Positions 5,674 through 18,722 of a DNA stretch of 20,348 nt are shown here, piece by piece (within the stretch, counting starts at the first letter, position 1; the number at the start of each line of letters is the position of its first letter). The stretch comes from a virus. The stretch covers positions 1 to 20,348 of IMG/VR virus record IMGVR_UViG_3300030406_000302, one strand, 5' to 3'. The notes beneath the pieces are model-generated. The model had not been told where the DNA came from, did no database searches, and saw only the letters and a program-made list of their open reading frames with translations. The position numbers and the translations under genes were made by a program.

Positions 5674-6486
5674 ATGGCTAATACAATTGATACAGCCTTT
5701 ATTAAGCAGTTCGAGAGTGAAGTTCATCTTGCTTATCAAAGAATGGGTTCAAAACTCATGAATACAGTAAGACAAGTGAACAACGTTCAAGGAAGTGTTG
5801 TACGCTTTCAGAAGATCGGTACTGGAACTGCTTCTACTAAATCAAGAAATGGTATGGTAACACCAATGGAACTAGCACATACCACTGTCGAGGCAACATT
5901 AAATGATTTTTATGCTGCTGAATATATCGACAAGCTTGATGAATTGAAGACAAATATTGACGAGAGACAAGCAATTGCAACAAGTGCTGCGGCTGCTCTT
6001 GGAAGAAAAACAGACGAAATCTTATACACTGCAATGGATGCAGGTGCTAATAGTACACAACTACATGATACAAGTTCTGCAGTAGAAAAAGCAGACTTGC
6101 TCTCTGCATTTGAAACTTTTGGTACTGCAAACATTCCAGAAGATGGTGGTAGATATATTGCTATGCATCCAAAGGGATATGCTGACTTATTTTTAATAAA
6201 TGAGTTTGCATCATCAGACTTTGTTGGTGAGCAAAACCTACCTTTTGCAGGTGGTATGACTATGAAAGAATTCTTAGGATTCAAGATTTTTTCAACTGCT
6301 GCAATAACTGCAGGAAAGAATATGGTTTACCATACAACTGCTATCGGTCTAGGTGTAGGTGCAAATGTAACGACAGAGTTAAATTATGTACCGGAAAAGG
6401 TTTCACATTTAGCAACATCTATGATGTCCATGGGTGCTAGTGTCATTGATGACAATGGTGTCTATGAACTCTTAGATAATAATTAA
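5674..6486 (+). CDS. Major capsid protein
   Basis: This 270-residue protein is the likely main shell protein. The N-terminus (NTIDTAFIKQFESEVHLAYQ), the Gly/Ser/Thr region around residues 38-65 that looks like an extended loop, the helix YIDKLDELKTNIDERQAIAT with the following Ala-rich stretch, and the later MHPKGYADLFLINEF and GFKIFSTAAI segments are the pattern I know from the Phage_capsid_2-like group of podovirus capsids, presumed to have the HK97 fold. It follows scaffold and gp13-like genes and has one of the best ribosome binding sites in the window, AAGGAG at 5661-5666, eight bases away. It is shorter than T7 gp10A (about 345 aa). No frameshift signal for a longer form like T7 gp10B was noticed at its 3' end. 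Confidence 0.9.
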   Translation: MANTIDTAFIKQFESEVHLAYQRMGSKLMNTVRQVNNVQGSVVRFQKIGTGTASTKSRNGMVTPMELAHTTVEATLNDFYAAEYIDKLDELKTNIDERQAIATSAAAALGRKTDEILYTAMDAGANSTQLHDTSSAVEKADLLSAFETFGTANIPEDGGRYIAMHPKGYADLFLINEFASSDFVGEQNLPFAGGMTMKEFLGFKIFSTAAITAGKNMVYHTTAIGLGVGANVTTELNYVPEKVSHLATSMMSMGASVIDDNGVYELLDNN

Positions 6487-6498
6487 TAGGAGGGTCTA

Positions 6499-6765
6499 AT
6501 GGCTTATAGTTCAAGTGGTCTTCACAAAATTGGTGGTGCTAGTGGAGTTTGTCTGTGGATTTATCAAACCACGGATGCAATTGCGGCAGTTAATTCTGCA
6601 GGCTATTTCACTGGTGAAGCAGTAAATATGTTAAATGTTCGTGACTTAATTATTGTACAAGATACGAATACACCAACAACAAACTTTGTAACTGTCTTAT
6701 CAAACAATGGTACTACTGTAGATGTTTCAGATGGTACTGCTGTTGCAGAAACAGACGGAGATTAG
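6499..6765 (+). CDS. Small capsid-neighbour protein, possible head decoration protein
   Basis: This 88-residue protein has no charged clusters and looks all-beta. It has an N-terminus MAYSSSGLHKIGG, then CLWIYQTTDAIAAVNSAGYF, then VRDLIIVQDTN and a Thr/Val-rich tail. Small proteins beginning with this SSSGL-IGG and W-Y-TxD-A pattern are, from memory, frequently found right after capsid genes in marine phages. A decoration or capsid-stabilising role is inferred from location and size only. It has a strong ribosome binding site, AGGAGGG at 6488-6494, and sits 12 bases after the capsid stop. A striking hairpin follows its stop codon. It could instead be a fibre-like head appendage. Confidence 0.82.
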   Translation: MAYSSSGLHKIGGASGVCLWIYQTTDAIAAVNSAGYFTGEAVNMLNVRDLIIVQDTNTPTTNFVTVLSNNGTTVDVSDGTAVAETDGD

Positions 6766-6795
6766 GAGTAGGGGGAGCAATCCCCCTATCTTTAT
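6764..6795 (+). promoter_or_regulatory. Hairpin splitting the Shine-Dalgarno from the tail tubular A start
   Basis: TAGGGGGA (6769-6776), loop GCAA, and TCCCCCTA (6781-6788) form a perfect 8-bp hairpin with a GNRA tetraloop. The only good ribosome binding site for the gene at 6796, AGGAG at 6764-6768, directly abuts the 5' side. Seven bases separate the 3' side from the ATG. Unfolded spacing is 27 bases; with the hairpin folded it is effectively seven. The tract after the stem (TCTTTAT) is a weak U-run, so partial transcription termination after the capsid genes is an alternative or added role. Confidence 0.72.
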
Positions 6796-7383
6796 ATGGC
6801 AAGTACAGTAGCAAATTCAGCATTAGATATAGCATCAAGAGCCTTAGTTCTTATAGGAGCAGAACCAATAACATCTTTTGACTCAAGTTCAACTGAAGCT
6901 TTGGTGGCTACTAATATGTATGAAGATATAATAAGAGCATCTTTATCAATGGCTAGATGGAGATTTGCAACTGAACAAGCAGAATTAAATCAATTAACAG
7001 ATGTTCCTACTGGAAGATTTGATATAGCACATCAATTGCCAAGTGATCTTTTAGTTCTTCATGCAGTAACTGTTAATGATAATAGAATAGAATATTCATT
7101 GTATGGTGATAAGGTTTTTTCAAACTCTTCTTCACAAGATAAATTAATAGCTGACTTTACATTTAGAGCACAAGAGATTGATTTTCCTTCATATTTTACT
7201 GTGGCAGTAGAGTACTCTTTAGCTAGTATATTTGCTACTGCAATAGCAAGAGATGATGGTCTTATGACAATGATGGAAAGAAAAGCCAATACTTTAATGG
7301 CACAAGCAAGAAATCTTGATTCACAACAACAAACAACAAGAAAACTAACTACATCAAGGTTTATTACTGATAGGAGGTCATAG
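6796..7383 (+). CDS. Tail tubular protein A (adaptor), T7 gp11-like
   Basis: This 195-residue protein matches podovirus tail tubular protein A, the ring that attaches below the portal and links it to the nozzle. The N-terminus ALDIASRALVLIGAEPITSF and the following ALVATNMYEDIIRASLSMARWRFA are the recognisable family signature, with a LP-LH-V-Y beta region in the middle and a C-terminal helical part (ARDDGLMTMMERKANTLMAQ). Length is like T7 gp11 (196 aa). No Shine-Dalgarno lies at normal distance: the AGGAG is 27 bases upstream, beyond the hairpin described at 6764-6795. The stop TAG shares its last base with the GTG start of the nozzle gene. Confidence 0.92.
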   Translation: MASTVANSALDIASRALVLIGAEPITSFDSSSTEALVATNMYEDIIRASLSMARWRFATEQAELNQLTDVPTGRFDIAHQLPSDLLVLHAVTVNDNRIEYSLYGDKVFSNSSSQDKLIADFTFRAQEIDFPSYFTVAVEYSLASIFATAIARDDGLMTMMERKANTLMAQARNLDSQQQTTRKLTTSRFITDRRS

Positions 7384-15100: not shown

Positions 15101-15455
15101 ATCATACTTTTTTGAAAAAGAACCTACAGATTTATTAGCTAGAACAATCGATCAATCAGGACTTTTAGGTGTATATTCAGATATTTTTTATATGTCATTA
15201 CATGGAATGATGGGATCAGGCATTATGAATGACTCAGAATACCTAAGAGGTAAGTATAAACCAGATGCAATAGATGCTTTGGTTGAGCCATTTGGTGCAT
15301 CAGTAGGACAAATGGTTGATTTTGGAAGAGTTGTTTATGATTACATGAATGGCAATGATAATGAAGCCTCAAGAAGACTTGCTAGAAATATACCATGGAT
15401 TCAACTTTATGGTATGAATGATGATTTCAAAGATTTACTAAGATCACGCAATTAG
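12156..15455 (+). CDS. Large ejection (internal virion) protein, T7 gp16-like, no transglycosylase domain seen
   Basis: This 1099-residue protein occupies the T7 gp16 position, where it would form the core stack and, after ejection, the channel across the envelope. It has Gly/Ala-rich hydrophobic stretches at about 117-165 and 183-206, a central charged helical region, then TFLHGAGLAAVGDLGVTVIE, and near residues 960-980 a hydrophobic AGAMAMMFLGYSVL. These resemble the membrane-active parts of other gp16-type proteins. T7 gp16 (1318 aa) starts with a lytic transglycosylase domain, and I see no such domain here, consistent with the shorter length. The start overlaps the upstream TAA (TAATG). 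The stop TAG overlaps candidate promoter copy 3. Confidence 0.88.
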   Translation: MAELNPRFGKQTIVGVPLTNYSQTAKADPTFGENFLAQLGYTYAPLYGAVEEELRFGNLKRKKMAFELEELSGYEDHIDYLVRAKNNEHLEYLKAQIDENRKRRDIIGRSNWYAPSSLIAGIVDPLNITFALPVFGQLGMLVRGGMTLGQAAKAGLKGGAVYAGASEGIRAPFDELNTFGESSVNAISAIGLGTAIGVAPNAFRALMPKFNKTSENLQAMAQGEKRVDVENLGKEIKDGEVSEDLVKTFYTKYLMHLVPSAGKRIAKNGTQLMKNYYERINGHAVLAKEKDLMGVGSNQSILQREAYYNVDANKFVNDFQEFYTRAITGDPNRKAPSQFMDFNIDSAKARIGQTFGGETPTFQQFFDDAFKKYILSKDPKNQRLLGELTDDEKIMHTKFKEYFDKYKEDAQYVGLLKDDASLQREIKILKKTLDDLDSRTKYLQGLDDAKGLTQKQRAELIGQDAKVFEYTKKLRWAEDTLEMGIYNKFIAPIYYNKKLLKESAEAREGLTKIFERHLTRNPARVWDDEAQQYTQRLVQNPRQFAKETVASILEENADSIENFTNKPGSGKHLKHRVLNIPEYEIIDYIITGPEVMYSYANRMGKRIEWARNFGDKNIDDVLNEIEVDMRNKNFDEKKIASLKRDFSEEIRRATGNIIEDPDTLNNQTAQILRTISGTTFLHGAGLAAVGDLGVTVIERGFKKIGVPFFNAADRKAFFKNAKNSNYMIDNIDLAKALIQKRMIEDSVKRIQPSGTERVLNLVNQTFYNVPIVGNNLGVLTKYMKMMDGGFRQSELIDMAVKIKNNTATNFDVQFMSRYGYSIDDAKILADMPWEKGDHMYYANTTQWSQKTAQDREVYRRFQTALDTGVSNVILHATSFDKPMLVNGVFYMRHRPWMKSVKNPFTGAEFFPIDKRASTKNIGMVRFENQLLGLPFQFMNFGMGAFTRITGGMFDVARRHRLAGAMAMMFLGYSVLNIRNRNRSYFFEKEPTDLLARTIDQSGLLGVYSDIFYMSLHGMMGSGIMNDSEYLRGKYKPDAIDALVEPFGASVGQMVDFGRVVYDYMNGNDNEASRRLARNIPWIQLYGMNDDFKDLLRSRN

Positions 15456-15480
15456 ATTTGTGCGTTTTAGAAAAGATTCT
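15455..15480 (+). promoter_or_regulatory. Candidate late promoter, copy 3 (GATTTGTGCGTT)
   Basis: The exact word GATTTGTGCGTT lies at 15455-15466, overlapping the stop codon of the last ejection gene and 33 bases before the fibre ATG. As at copy 1, the G of the word is part of the upstream stop codon. Downstream positions follow the same partial consensus as copies 1 and 2. It begins the only gap (44 bases) between the ejection genes and the fibre genes, as expected for a promoter of the fibre unit. Confidence 0.5.
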
Positions 15481-15499
15481 TCCACTGTAAAGTCCTATT

Positions 15500-16651
15500 A
15501 TGACTATAGCTTTAAGTGCAAATACCCCCAGGGTTTCATATACTGTGTCGCAAGGAGCAACACAGACATCTTTTACTGTACCATTTGTATTCTTTACTGG
15601 ATCAACAGATTTAAATGTATTTGTTGATGGTACAGAACGTACTTTTGATGCAAGTACAAGTAATACAACTTTATATACTGTAAGTGGTGGCGATGGTTCT
15701 ACTGGAACTGTAACAACTTCTGTCACTGGTGCTACTGGTGGCAGTACTGTCGTTATTACTCGTGATATACCTTTATCAAGAACAACGGACTTTCCAAGTT
15801 CTGGTGCTTTTGAAATATCAAAACTGAATACAGAATTGGATACTATTGTTACTTTGATTGCTGATGCTGATGATGAAAACTCAAGAGCATTGAGATTAAA
15901 GGAATCAGATGCCGCAGTTGATTTAACATTGCCTTTAAAGGCAGATAGATTAGGAACTGTATTAGGATTTAATGCTACTACTGGTGCGGCTGAAGCAGGA
16001 CCAACAATAGCAAATGTAAATAGCTTGTCTGCTATTACTGCAAACATAAATACAGTAGCAGGTATAAGTGCTAATGTTACTACAGTCGCAGGTATCAGTA
16101 GTAACGTTACAACAGTAGCAGGAATATCTAGCAATGTGACTACAGTTGCAGGTAAGGCATCTGAAATTACAGCTTTAGCAGCATCTAGTGTGATTGCTGA
16201 TATGGCATTATTAGGTAATGCAGATGTTATAGCTGATATGGCTTTACTTGCTGATAGTGATATTATTGCTGATATGAACACACTAGCTACAAGTGATATA
16301 GTTTCAGACTTAAATACTTTAGCTACTAGTGATATTGTTACTGATCTCAATCTATTGGCTACATCAGATAATGTCACAAATATGGCAACACTAGGTGCTA
16401 GTGGTGTAGTAGGAAATATTGCTACAGTTGCAGGTGTATCTAGCAATGTTACAACAGTTGCAGGTATTTCTAGCAATGTCACAACAGTTGCAGGAATAAG
16501 TAGTAATGTAACTTCAGTAGCAGGAGTCGCAAGTAATGTTACTACAGTTGCTTCTAATATTTCAGATGTAAATACAGTAGCATCAAATATATCTACAATA
16601 AGTGAAAAAGCATCAAAAGGATTTGCTACTGCAATGGCAATAGCATTGTAA
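15500..16651 (+). CDS. Tail fibre protein with T7 gp17-like N-terminal domain and repeat stalk
   Basis: This 383-residue protein starts with about 150 residues resembling the virion-attachment domain of T7-type tail fibres: YTVSQGATQTSFTVPFVFF, DLNVFVDGTERTFD, and VVITRDIPLSRTTDFPSSGA followed by NTELD. It continues with a repeat stalk: decapeptides of the NVTTVAGISS type (about 182-221), six 12-residue units of the IADMALLADSD type (231-302), and decapeptides again (about 305-366). It ends almost at once (EKASKGFATAMAIAL). There is no distal receptor-binding domain, so this part is probably supplied by proteins encoded downstream. T7 gp17 is 553 aa. No clear Shine-Dalgarno precedes the ATG. 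Confidence 0.9.
   Translation: MTIALSANTPRVSYTVSQGATQTSFTVPFVFFTGSTDLNVFVDGTERTFDASTSNTTLYTVSGGDGSTGTVTTSVTGATGGSTVVITRDIPLSRTTDFPSSGAFEISKLNTELDTIVTLIADADDENSRALRLKESDAAVDLTLPLKADRLGTVLGFNATTGAAEAGPTIANVNSLSAITANINTVAGISANVTTVAGISSNVTTVAGISSNVTTVAGKASEITALAASSVIADMALLGNADVIADMALLADSDIIADMNTLATSDIVSDLNTLATSDIVTDLNLLATSDNVTNMATLGASGVVGNIATVAGVSSNVTTVAGISSNVTTVAGISSNVTSVAGVASNVTTVASNISDVNTVASNISTISEKASKGFATAMAIAL
16043..16162 (+). repeat. Decapeptide-coding repeats, block 1 (fibre stalk)
   Basis: Four tandem 30-base units encode INTVAGISAN, VTTVAGISSN, VTTVAGISSN and VTTVAGKASE. The DNA copies differ mostly at synonymous positions, so the protein period rather than the DNA is conserved. This is the first part of the repetitive fibre stalk. 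Confidence 0.85.
16190..16405 (+). repeat. Six 12-residue-coding repeats in the fibre stalk
   Basis: Six tandem 36-base units encode VIADMALLGNAD, VIADMALLADSD, IIADMNTLATSD, IVSDLNTLATSD, IVTDLNLLATSD and NVTNMATLGASG. The period (12) differs from the flanking decapeptide blocks. Neighbouring units are most alike, which fits stepwise tandem duplication. Confidence 0.88.
16412..16597 (+). repeat. Decapeptide-coding repeats, block 2 (fibre stalk)
   Basis: About six 30-base units encode NIATVAGVSS, NVTTVAGISS (twice), NVTSVAGVAS, NVTTVASNIS and a degenerate DVNTVASNIS. The same repeat type as block 1 resumes after the 12-residue insert and decays toward the C-terminus. Confidence 0.85.
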
Positions 16652-16662
16652 AGGAGAAGTAA

Positions 16663-16989
16663 ATGGCACAAGATTTTGAAAGAAATACAGCAAATGCAGT
16701 TGGCACTAGTGCAACGACACTAAGAACAGCAAACTCAGATGATGCCATAGTTGGAATAACAGTAGCAAACGTACACACAGCACAGATTACAGTAGAAGTT
16801 TACATTAATGATGGTTCTAACGACATACATATAGTTAAAGATGCACCAATACCGGTAGGAGGAACATTACAGATTCTTGATGGTGGTGCTAAGATTGTGA
16901 TGGTTTCAGGTGATGCCTTAAAAGTAAAGGCAAGTGTTGCAAGTTCGGCAGATGTTTGGGTGTCTGTTGTGGATGCAATTAGTACATAG
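16663..16989 (+). CDS. Small beta-rich structural protein of the fibre region
   Basis: This 108-residue protein looks like a single beta-sandwich: alternating hydrophobic strands such as IVGITVANVHTAQITVEVYI and VKDAPIPVGGTLQILDGGAK, then KIVMVSGDALKVKAS and VWVSVVDAIST. I recall close patterns (KDAPIP-G-LQ-LDGGAKIV) as small tail-region proteins in many marine phages. Function is not established, and a fibre tip, baseplate-like or decoration role is inferred. AAGGAG at 16651-16656, overlapping the fibre stop codon, with six bases of spacing gives a good start. It is the first of the small cistrons following the fibre. Confidence 0.85.
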   Translation: MAQDFERNTANAVGTSATTLRTANSDDAIVGITVANVHTAQITVEVYINDGSNDIHIVKDAPIPVGGTLQILDGGAKIVMVSGDALKVKASVASSADVWVSVVDAIST

Positions 16990-16997
16990 GAGTAAAT

Positions 16998-17447
16998 ATG
17001 GCTTATATTGGAAATGTAGTACCTGCTAACTTCCAAGCTCCACCTGCAGTCGTAAGATTTAGTGGTGATGGTTCTGATACAACCTTTGCACTTGGAAGAA
17101 CAATAGGTTCGGTACAAGAAATACTTGTAAGTGTTGATGGTGTTGTCCAGGATAGTTCAGCTTACACTGTACCTGATGGCTCAACATTAACATTTTCAGC
17201 AGCACCTTCAAGTGGCACAAACAATATCTTTGTATACTTTCTTGAGTTATCAGCAGGAACAATTACACCTACAAGTGAGTTCAAGGGTAACTTCAAGAAT
17301 GGTGGTATGTTCAGAACTAATGCACAAGCCTTAGATACAAATATAACAATACTTGCCACAGAAAATGCACAAGTTACTGGAACACTCACTGTAAATAGTG
17401 GGATTACATTGACTGTCAATGATGGTGGAAGGTTGGTGGTATCGTGA
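16998..17447 (+). CDS. Fibre-related protein with T7-fibre-like beta domain
   Basis: This 149-residue protein begins MAYIGNVVPANFQAP and carries a beta domain, TFALGRTIGSVQEILVSVDG followed by VVQDSSAYTVPDGSTLTFSA and NIFVYFLEL. This echoes the fibre N-terminus (DLNVFVDGTERTF) and the partial protein at 20101 (VYQNGILLVPGDDYTAT). The second half is a Gly/Asn/Thr-rich tail, FKGNFKNGGMFRTNAQALDT, ending in a repetitive TGTLTVNSGITLTVNDG strand pattern of the kind seen in phage fibre shafts. It is probably a fibre component or adhesin that attaches to the virion. AGGAG at 16988-16992 lies five bases before the ATG. The end overlaps the next GTG start (GTGA). Confidence 0.83.
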   Translation: MAYIGNVVPANFQAPPAVVRFSGDGSDTTFALGRTIGSVQEILVSVDGVVQDSSAYTVPDGSTLTFSAAPSSGTNNIFVYFLELSAGTITPTSEFKGNFKNGGMFRTNAQALDTNITILATENAQVTGTLTVNSGITLTVNDGGRLVVS

Positions 17448-17890
17448 GTACAATCAAGGTAGATACAATACAAACTCGTGGTGGTGTATCAGAGATAGCC
17501 ATTGATAAACTAAAGGGTGTGTCTAGTACATCATCTATATCTGTAGTTGCAGAAGGTGGTTCAACTACTACAAACTTACAACAAGGTTTAGCGAAGTGTT
17601 GGCATTTACATGACCATGCTGGAGGTGCAACATTAGATTCTTTTAACGTAACATCTTTTACAGACCAAGGAACTGGTCATTACAGAACTGTAATAGCATC
17701 AGATATGGCTAGTGCCAACTATGTTACAACAGGTAGTAATGTGCAAGGAGACACAGAATTTTTTAGTATGTTAATATCTGATGGTGATGTTAATACAGCA
17801 ACAAACTGTGATTACAAAATTGTTAATACGAGTGGTTCAGTCAATGATAACGACATTATAAATGTTGTAATACACGGAGATTTAGCATGA
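17444..17890 (+). CDS. Fibre-associated protein, HGDLA family member 1
   Basis: This 148-residue protein starts MSTIKVDTIQTRGG, a beginning I associate with marine phage fibre proteins, and contains LQQGLAKCWHLHDHAGGATL followed by DSFNVTSFTDQGTGHYRTVI. The latter matches the widespread GLAKxW ... DSxNVSSxTDxGTGxY pattern of phage tail or adhesin proteins. It ends HGDLA. The two following genes share this layout and ending, so the three form a paralogous set. The start is GTG in the GTGA overlap. Its last codons contain the ribosome binding site of the next gene. A host-recognition role is inferred from location and family pattern. Confidence 0.82.
   Translation: MSTIKVDTIQTRGGVSEIAIDKLKGVSSTSSISVVAEGGSTTTNLQQGLAKCWHLHDHAGGATLDSFNVTSFTDQGTGHYRTVIASDMASANYVTTGSNVQGDTEFFSMLISDGDVNTATNCDYKIVNTSGSVNDNDIINVVIHGDLA
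17872..17889 (+). promoter_or_regulatory. Ribosome binding site inside HGDLA codons, copy 1
   Basis: The sequence ACACGGAGA TTTAGC ATG encodes the HGDLA ending and supplies GGAGA (17876-17880) six bases before the next start. The same arrangement follows the other two family members. Confidence 0.75.
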
Positions 17891-18312
17891 GTACAATCGT
17901 AACAGACACAATCACAGGCAAGTCCACTGCAACAACCATAACCATTGGCTCAACACCTGTAGTTAGTGCAAGTGCAAACTCTATGACTATTAGAGGTGAG
18001 GGTTCAGCACAGACAAGTATTCAGCAAGGGTTGGCAAAGTGTTGGCTTTTTGCTGCTAGTGATTCAGCTTTAAGTGACAGTCTTAATATAGCATCTAATA
18101 CAGACAACAGCACAGGAAATTACACTTATACTTTTACAAATGCTTTTTCAAATGATGACTCATCACAAACTGTGACAGCAAATTCAGGTACAGATAGAGG
18201 TGCTAATACATCAGGAAGAGCTACAGGTAGCTTTACTCTTGAAGTGTTTAACTCATCTGCTAGTAATGATGACTGTGCTCACAGTGGCACATTACACGGA
18301 GACCTAGCATAA
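17887..18312 (+). CDS. Fibre-associated protein, HGDLA family member 2
   Basis: This 141-residue paralogue of the previous gene has MSTIVTDTITG at the N-terminus, IQQGLAKCWLFAASDSALSD followed by SLNIASNTDNSTGNYTYTF in the middle, and the ending HGDLA. The central Thr/Ser/Asn-rich part (around SGTDRGANTSGRATG) differs from its neighbours, so the three proteins diverge most after the GLAKCW core. Two Cys residues (in KCW and near DDCAH) are present, as in member 1, but reducing or disulfide state cannot be judged. Start by ATGA overlap with GGAGA at 17876-17880. Role as for member 1, inferred. Confidence 0.82.
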   Translation: MSTIVTDTITGKSTATTITIGSTPVVSASANSMTIRGEGSAQTSIQQGLAKCWLFAASDSALSDSLNIASNTDNSTGNYTYTFTNAFSNDDSSQTVTANSGTDRGANTSGRATGSFTLEVFNSSASNDDCAHSGTLHGDLA

Positions 18313-18314
18313 TG
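18294..18314 (+). promoter_or_regulatory. Ribosome binding site inside HGDLA codons, copy 2
   Basis: ACACGGAGA followed by CCTAGCATAATG encodes the HGDLA ending and supplies GGAGA (18298-18302) nine bases before the next ATG. The joint is TAATG rather than ATGA, so spacing is three bases longer than at copies 1 and 3. Confidence 0.72.
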
Positions 18315-18722
18315 GCAAACGGAACAATAGCATTTGATACATTACAGACAAGTGGACAGATAACAGGCACAGCCAAGTCTGTTGATACAGATTTTGTTGT
18401 TAGTGGTAGTGCGAAGGCTTTATGCCATGTTAGTGCAGATGGTGCTACTGCTTCAAACACTTTAAATATTTCAAGTTTAGATGATGATGGCACTGGAGAC
18501 AGAGGAATTAATTTTAGTTCAAATATGGGAAATGCGACATATATAGTTACTTTTGCATCTGAAGATGGGAATTCAGGTAGTCTTAATAGAACTTGTGATG
18601 TAAGTGATGGAACTATGGCAACAGGTGCTTTTGATTTTGAGTCTGTTATGACAAGCTCAAGTAGTAACAGAACTAATACAGATACTATAAATTTTGTAAA
18701 TGTACACGGAGACTTAGCATGA
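18312..18722 (+). CDS. Fibre-associated protein, HGDLA family member 3
   Basis: This 136-residue protein is the most divergent of the three. It starts MANGTIAFDTLQTSGQI. The core is SAKALCHVSADGATASN followed by TLNISSLDDDGTGDRGINFS, where SAKALC takes the place of GLAKCW. It ends NFVNVHGDLA. The same order of N-terminal strand, AKxxC core, xLNISSxxDxGTG motif and HGDLA end supports common descent. No membrane segment or enzyme motif is visible. TAATG overlap with the previous gene and ATGA overlap with the next make this a tightly coupled run. Confidence 0.8.
   Translation: MANGTIAFDTLQTSGQITGTAKSVDTDFVVSGSAKALCHVSADGATASNTLNISSLDDDGTGDRGINFSSNMGNATYIVTFASEDGNSGSLNRTCDVSDGTMATGAFDFESVMTSSSSNRTNTDTINFVNVHGDLA
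18704..18721 (+). promoter_or_regulatory. Ribosome binding site inside HGDLA codons, copy 3
   Basis: ACACGGAGA CTTAGC ATG again encodes HGDLA and gives GGAGA (18708-18712) six bases before the start of the next, unrelated gene. This keeps the exact spacing of copy 1. Confidence 0.75.

Follow-up and report, generated by a model that had tools for sequence, protein, structure and literature searches.

A post-capsid hairpin that probably doubles as a split ribosome binding site for the tail tubular protein A gene in a clade of marine podovirus-like phages

In the stretch of viral DNA analysed here (20,348 nt, called "the window" throughout), a Shine-Dalgarno sequence (SD) and the start codon of the tail tubular protein A gene (TTPA) stand on opposite sides of a stable hairpin. 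The explanation that we favor, and hold to be probable, is that this is a post-capsid, terminator-type hairpin that in the window clade doubles as a split ("accommodated") ribosome binding site (RBS) for TTPA. Ribosomes initiating or reinitiating behind the upstream gene would bind an AGGAG that overlaps the stop codon of that gene, and the 8-bp GNRA-capped stem would stay folded and take 20 nt out of the path, leaving the ATG 7 nt from the SD. The stem itself would be of the terminator type that many phages retain downstream of their capsid genes; an SD would have stood beside it in the ancestor of the window clade, making TTPA translatable across the hairpin. An earlier, sequence-only reading had proposed the bridging. 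Comparative geometry supports that proposal, but the hairpin appears to be older than the SD and to be more than a bridge. The features concerned are as follows.

5674..6486, + strand: major capsid protein gene (phrog_3437, E 1.7e-53), with its own strong SD
6499..6765, + strand: 88-aa gene, function unassigned (phrog_18004), between capsid and TTPA
6764..6768, + strand: SD AGGAG, abutting the stem; -6.1 to -6.8 kcal/mol with the 16S rRNA 3' end
6769..6776, + strand: 5' arm of the stem, TAGGGGGA
6777..6780, + strand: GNRA tetraloop, GCAA (GTAA or GAAA in relatives)
6781..6788, + strand: 3' arm of the stem, TCCCCCTA
6789..6795, + strand: exit spacer TCTTTAT, 7 nt, of which 6790-6793 can pair weakly with SD bases 6765-6768
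6796..7383, + strand: TTPA gene (phrog_394, E 4.1e-34), with its ATG at 6796-6798

The SD overlaps the stop codon of the 88-aa gene (TAG, 6763-6765). The AGGAG 27 nt before the ATG, too far for direct use, and the 8-bp stem with its GCAA loop and 7-base exit had been described to the base, and the layout is exact: the gap between SD and ATG is 7 nt when folded versus 27 nt in the linear sequence. It had also been claimed that no other RBS lies near this ATG. That holds: across the clade the exit cannot pair as an SD would (its best duplex has +0.6 kcal/mol), and nothing SD-like lies nearer the TTPA start except a GGGGGAG inside the stem. An alternative start codon was considered and dropped, as the frame offers no earlier start than 6796 and the N-terminal end of the protein is conserved.

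Most other genes in the window carry an ordinary SD, for instance those for the capsid (-9.2 kcal/mol), the 88-aa protein (-10.7 kcal/mol), and tail tubular protein B (-11.4 kcal/mol), so the host of this phage likely uses SDs. The nearest isolates infect SAR11; the TTPA of one of them, Hodr, is 44% identical to that of the window. Elsewhere in the window (17444-18722), three consecutive small genes (17444, 17887, and 18312) each end in HGDLA, and the GDLA codons (GGAGATTTAGC and variants) serve as SD for the gene that follows, such that a conserved C-terminal peptide doubles as an RBS. On the minus strand, a 414-aa open frame (15427-16671) lies antisense to a repetitive gene (15500-16651) and is probably a shadow ORF of the repeats.

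The hairpin is the only perfect one in the 20,348 bases with at least 8 bp, at least 5 G-C pairs, and a loop of 3-8 nt. Sixty dinucleotide shuffles contained a mean of 0.2 such hairpins (maximum 2) anywhere in the window, and the expectation for the GGGGGAGNAATCCCCC core is 0.00 occurrences. No other 30-nt stretch of the window is as stable (-16.2 kcal/mol); the hairpin is rich in G and C (5 G-C among 8 pairs) and has a core of -14.1 kcal/mol. A search of the window against Rfam gave no family match above the gathering score. Folding predicts that the hairpin forms with near certainty, and in the window fold the minimum-energy structure extends it by a weak lower helix (GGAG/CUUU, one base bulged), which pairs the SD (6765-6768) with the exit (6790-6793). 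Freeing the SD is computed to cost ∼1.5 kcal/mol, against -6 to -7 kcal/mol gained from pairing with 16S rRNA. To free the SD, exit, and start together would take ∼7 kcal/mol with the stem intact and ∼22 kcal/mol if the hairpin were melted as well, which makes initiation with the stem folded the plausible route. The weak SD-exit helix could reduce translation.

A search with TTPA yielded 80 IMG/VR loci at 76-92% identity, and further scans added more distant loci. As loci from separate searches are in part the same contigs, all counts given here are of distinct sequences only. The window clade supplied 51 distinct junctions, of which 33 bear the hairpin and 18 were scored as hairpin-less. Every one of the 33 carries an AGG-containing purine tract at the base of the stem (AGGAG, AAGGAG, AAAGGG, AAAGG, or AAGGGA), with the proviso that the L270 group does so only when the outer ATCA/TGAT pairs of its minimum-energy fold are counted as stem. 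The exit had been expected to be a constant 7 bases. It is near-constant, at 5-8 nt in 31 of the 33, but reaches 11 nt in L261 and 12 nt in L270 (7-8 nt with the longer stem). Between the upstream stop codon and the stem lie anywhere from 1 to 14 nt, yet the SD keeps its place against the stem; it is therefore tied to the stem and not to the stop codon.

Within the aligned set the core helix is 100% paired and seven of its eight pairs are invariant; the outer pair occurs as T-A, G-U, G-C, or A-T, and loop variation is confined to GNRA, with a 5-nt loop in L062. Inner pairs differ in the L245 type (TAGGGGGAGA/TCTCCCTCTA), in L361 (TGGGGGC/GCCCCCA), and in L270, the stem of which is unrelated. 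This last group has a different hairpin in the same arrangement, with AAAGG at its base and an exit of 7-8 nt. L361, whose TTPA is 62% identical and which has no 88-aa gene, reads AGGGG, TGGGGGC, AAAA, GCCCCCA, 9 nt, ATG. Taken jointly, the core and lower helix have a covariation score above those of 500/500 shuffles and of all slid versions. Because seven of the eight core pairs do not vary, the evidence for covariation comes from the outer pair, the replaced hairpin, and L361. The compensatory changes that the sequence-only reading suggested looking for in relatives are thus present, both in the outer pair and as a replaced hairpin of the same geometry.

Seventeen relatives without hairpin or SD form one clade on the TTPA tree (SH-aLRT 99), and their TTPA genes start 5-7 nt past the upstream stop codon. 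Stem-less relatives with a normal RBS had been named as evidence that would speak against bridging; in this main hairpin-less lineage the SD and the hairpin were lost together. A possible exception is L018, a single contig in which the 3' half of the stem is deleted and the remaining GGGGGAG, 8 nt from the ATG, makes a conventional RBS.

Scanning 2.9 million viral contigs of IMG/VR for AGGAGT followed by this hairpin returned 103 stretches in 67 distinct contexts. In 65 of these, a TTPA start follows 6-7 nt after the 8-bp stem (60 were labeled as TTPA by a keyword filter, and five of the other seven by reading). Of the two left over, one ends at a contig edge and the other comes from an unrelated 250-kb contig. 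The 65 are all members of a single homologous family, and the count therefore speaks of strong constraint and not of repeated origin. Among the matches listed (L082-L200), GGGGGAGNAATCCCCC, a hairpin with a G5/C5 stem and a GNRA loop, recurs widely between the genes of unrelated viral contigs and is often accompanied by a T-tract. Also among the matches listed, unrelated phages with exits >12 nt have an SD downstream of the hairpin in 50 of 71 cases. Three candidates for independent split sites were set aside: L099 (AGGAG, GCGGGGGA, GCAA, TCCCCCGC, 7 nt, ATG), as the ORF behind it looks spurious, and L087 and L173, where the purine tracts pair with their own T-rich tails in a terminator-like manner. 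In addition, L386, L401, and L410 have starts at the T-tract end of a TAGGGGGAGAGCAATCTCC-type hairpin, with no SD before the stem. Similarly, gp50 of Pelagibacter phage HTVC034P (L364:665-730) starts right behind a terminator-like hairpin, AGGTGGGGAGAAATCCCCACCTTTTTATG, and may be a further start codon joined to a terminator.

The hairpin also occurs without bridging. In a sister clade with TTPA ∼46% identical, a simple stem finder placed a hairpin in 48 of 52 distinct junctions, the other four being two larger branched hairpins, one gene insertion, and one misassigned start. An SD before the stem is absent from all 48 (no flank reaches -4 kcal/mol; median +1.65 kcal/mol), though the capsid genes of this clade do carry SDs (L280-L359). 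Many of these hairpins are 11-12 bp long with a T8 tract and resemble intrinsic terminators, others have no T-tract, and the terminator score is positive in 38 of the 48. SAR11 phage Hodr has a 13-bp hairpin at the junction with neither SD nor T-tract. In Vibrio phage D453 and Yersinia phage YeP5 the hairpin does have a T-tract, and a separate SD comes after it. Within the window clade itself, L267, L075, and L403 have a gene inserted before TTPA. The inserted gene has its own SD, and the hairpin and purine tract remain behind the 88-aa gene. The insert (L267:1145-1230, L075:990-1075, and L403) encodes a short lysine-rich protein, MSIPKKKKKSLLK..., which in L403 begins MSKKKKPSLL; it resembles the window gene at 144-347. 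Given the hairpins without SD in the sister clade and Hodr, the retention on the capsid side, and the commonness of such hairpins elsewhere, the hairpin cannot exist only for bridging. It appears to belong to the end of the capsid block, with some role there, and the SD contact would have been added in the window clade; it probably descends from a hairpin of the transcription-stop type after the capsid genes. A search of 12 long relatives for a T7-like RNA polymerase gave no match, and neither did its positive control.

How much of this can be explained without a split RBS? The hairpin may be only an intrinsic (partial) terminator after the capsid genes, with TTPA translated by coupling or without an SD, and with a purine tract that is there by chance or as the complement to the pyrimidine-rich tail. 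We regard this as unlikely. It would suit the terminator-type hairpins at or near the junction in the sister clade, D453, and YeP5, the position that the hairpin keeps on the capsid side after insertions, and the presence of the TTPA gene in relatives with neither hairpin nor SD. In the window, too, the tail TCTTTATATG has a terminator score of d = 16.8, and the lower helix pairs the SD with the exit. The T-rich tail is nonetheless unconserved among relatives of the same geometry (d from -21 to +17, 20/33 positive), and what is conserved is the SD contact and the exit length. Moreover, the SD is retained where the exit is unpairable (AACCAAC in L140, ACATTT in L245, and ATAATAT in L062), SD-exit covariation alone falls within the shuffles (43/500), and a pure terminator needs no exit of 6-8 nt. 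A translational brake, in which the SD is partly sequestered by a CUUU or UCUU exit and opened by ribosomes finishing the upstream gene, strikes us as improbable. In its favor, the predicted ensemble has the SD bases paired for the most part (probability of being unpaired, 0.16-0.48), 89.7% of cells are paired in the SD-exit helix, with AGGAG/CUUU and AAAGG/UCUU variants, and in most members the stop codon either overlaps the SD or ends immediately before it. However, this lower helix is weak (∼1.5 kcal/mol), rich in G-U, and missing from L140, L245, and L062, and its covariation, once considered as proof of a brake, was dropped as not significant against the same shuffles. As regards a FourU-type thermometer or other SD sequestration, most members have a four-pair SD-exit helix and several lack it. 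A brake would be compatible with bridging, as a layer of tuning.

That the hairpin is a 3'-end stabilizer or processing signal of the capsid message, with no part in translation or termination, is hardly credible to us. It does follow the capsid/88-aa block in all hairpin-bearing clades, including members without a T-tract (L303, L307, and Hodr), but such a role leaves the fixed SD contact and exit length of the window clade unexplained. For the split RBS speak the AGG at the stem base (33/33), the exit length (31/33 at 5-8 nt), and the scan (65/67). Against it, the sister clade keeps the hairpin without an SD, so that it is not conserved for bridging there, and the purine tract persists in L267, L075, and L403 despite an inserted gene with its own SD. 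We infer from the comparisons that ribosomes use the split site and that some terminator or 3'-end function may remain. More tentatively, and with rather less confidence than even, both roles could be exercised at once: a converted terminator hairpin would give a partial stop after the capsid genes and bridge the SD on read-through RNA. If so, one 30-nt element would set the ratio of capsid to tail proteins at both levels.

To our knowledge, few split RBSs have been described, and it is those of T4 that are generally cited. Comparative support for the site in the window runs deep, with dozens of distinct sequences, a hairpin replaced in the same geometry, the joint loss of SD and hairpin, and insertions that separate the hairpin from the start. 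It suggests a route by which split RBSs may originate, namely an SD arising beside an existing terminator-type hairpin. Sites of this kind will be missed by gene finders that look for an SD 5-12 nt from the start.

Among intrinsic terminators after phage capsid genes, the textbook example is T-phi of T7. The window hairpin shares with T-phi and with the hairpins of D453 and YeP5 its position after the capsid block, its G/C-rich stem, and its stable tetraloop. Unlike them, it has no T-tract conserved in its clade, an SD abuts the stem, and a start codon lies within 6-8 nt. The split RBS of Escherichia coli thrS contains a hairpin that stays folded and is accommodated by the ribosome (Sacerdot et al. 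1998, as cited in PMC3936740); that site has an upstream single-stranded domain and a hairpin essential for autoregulation, and no such domain or repressor is known for the window. Closer to hand are two genes of phage T4. The sequence-only reading had supposed that either role of the window hairpin would lower tail protein output; in both T4 genes the hairpin raises translation (PMC3014915). In gene 38, a different gene in a different phage with a different hairpin, a gap of 22 nt between SD and AUG is likewise cut, to 5 nt (PMC3014915). In gene 25, the split or accommodated RBS attributed to Nivinskas et al. 1999 and Malys and Nivinskas 2009 (as cited in PMC3014915), a gap of 27 nt is reduced to 11 nt. 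The earlier appeal to gene 25 as an established mechanism agrees with that source, and gene 38 is a second case of its kind. As in gene 25, we find a late structural gene, an SD 27 nt from the AUG with a gap-shortening hairpin in between, and conservation in close relatives with absence from distant ones. The differences are that 7 nt are left here, that the stem is G5/C5 with a GNRA loop, that the phages are unrelated and marine podovirus-like, and that the hairpin appears to be of terminator type and older than the SD. With its distant SD, bridging hairpin, lack of an alternative SD, and conservation in close relatives, the window site is best supported as a split RBS of the T4 gene 25/38 kind, a mechanism already known from phage T4.
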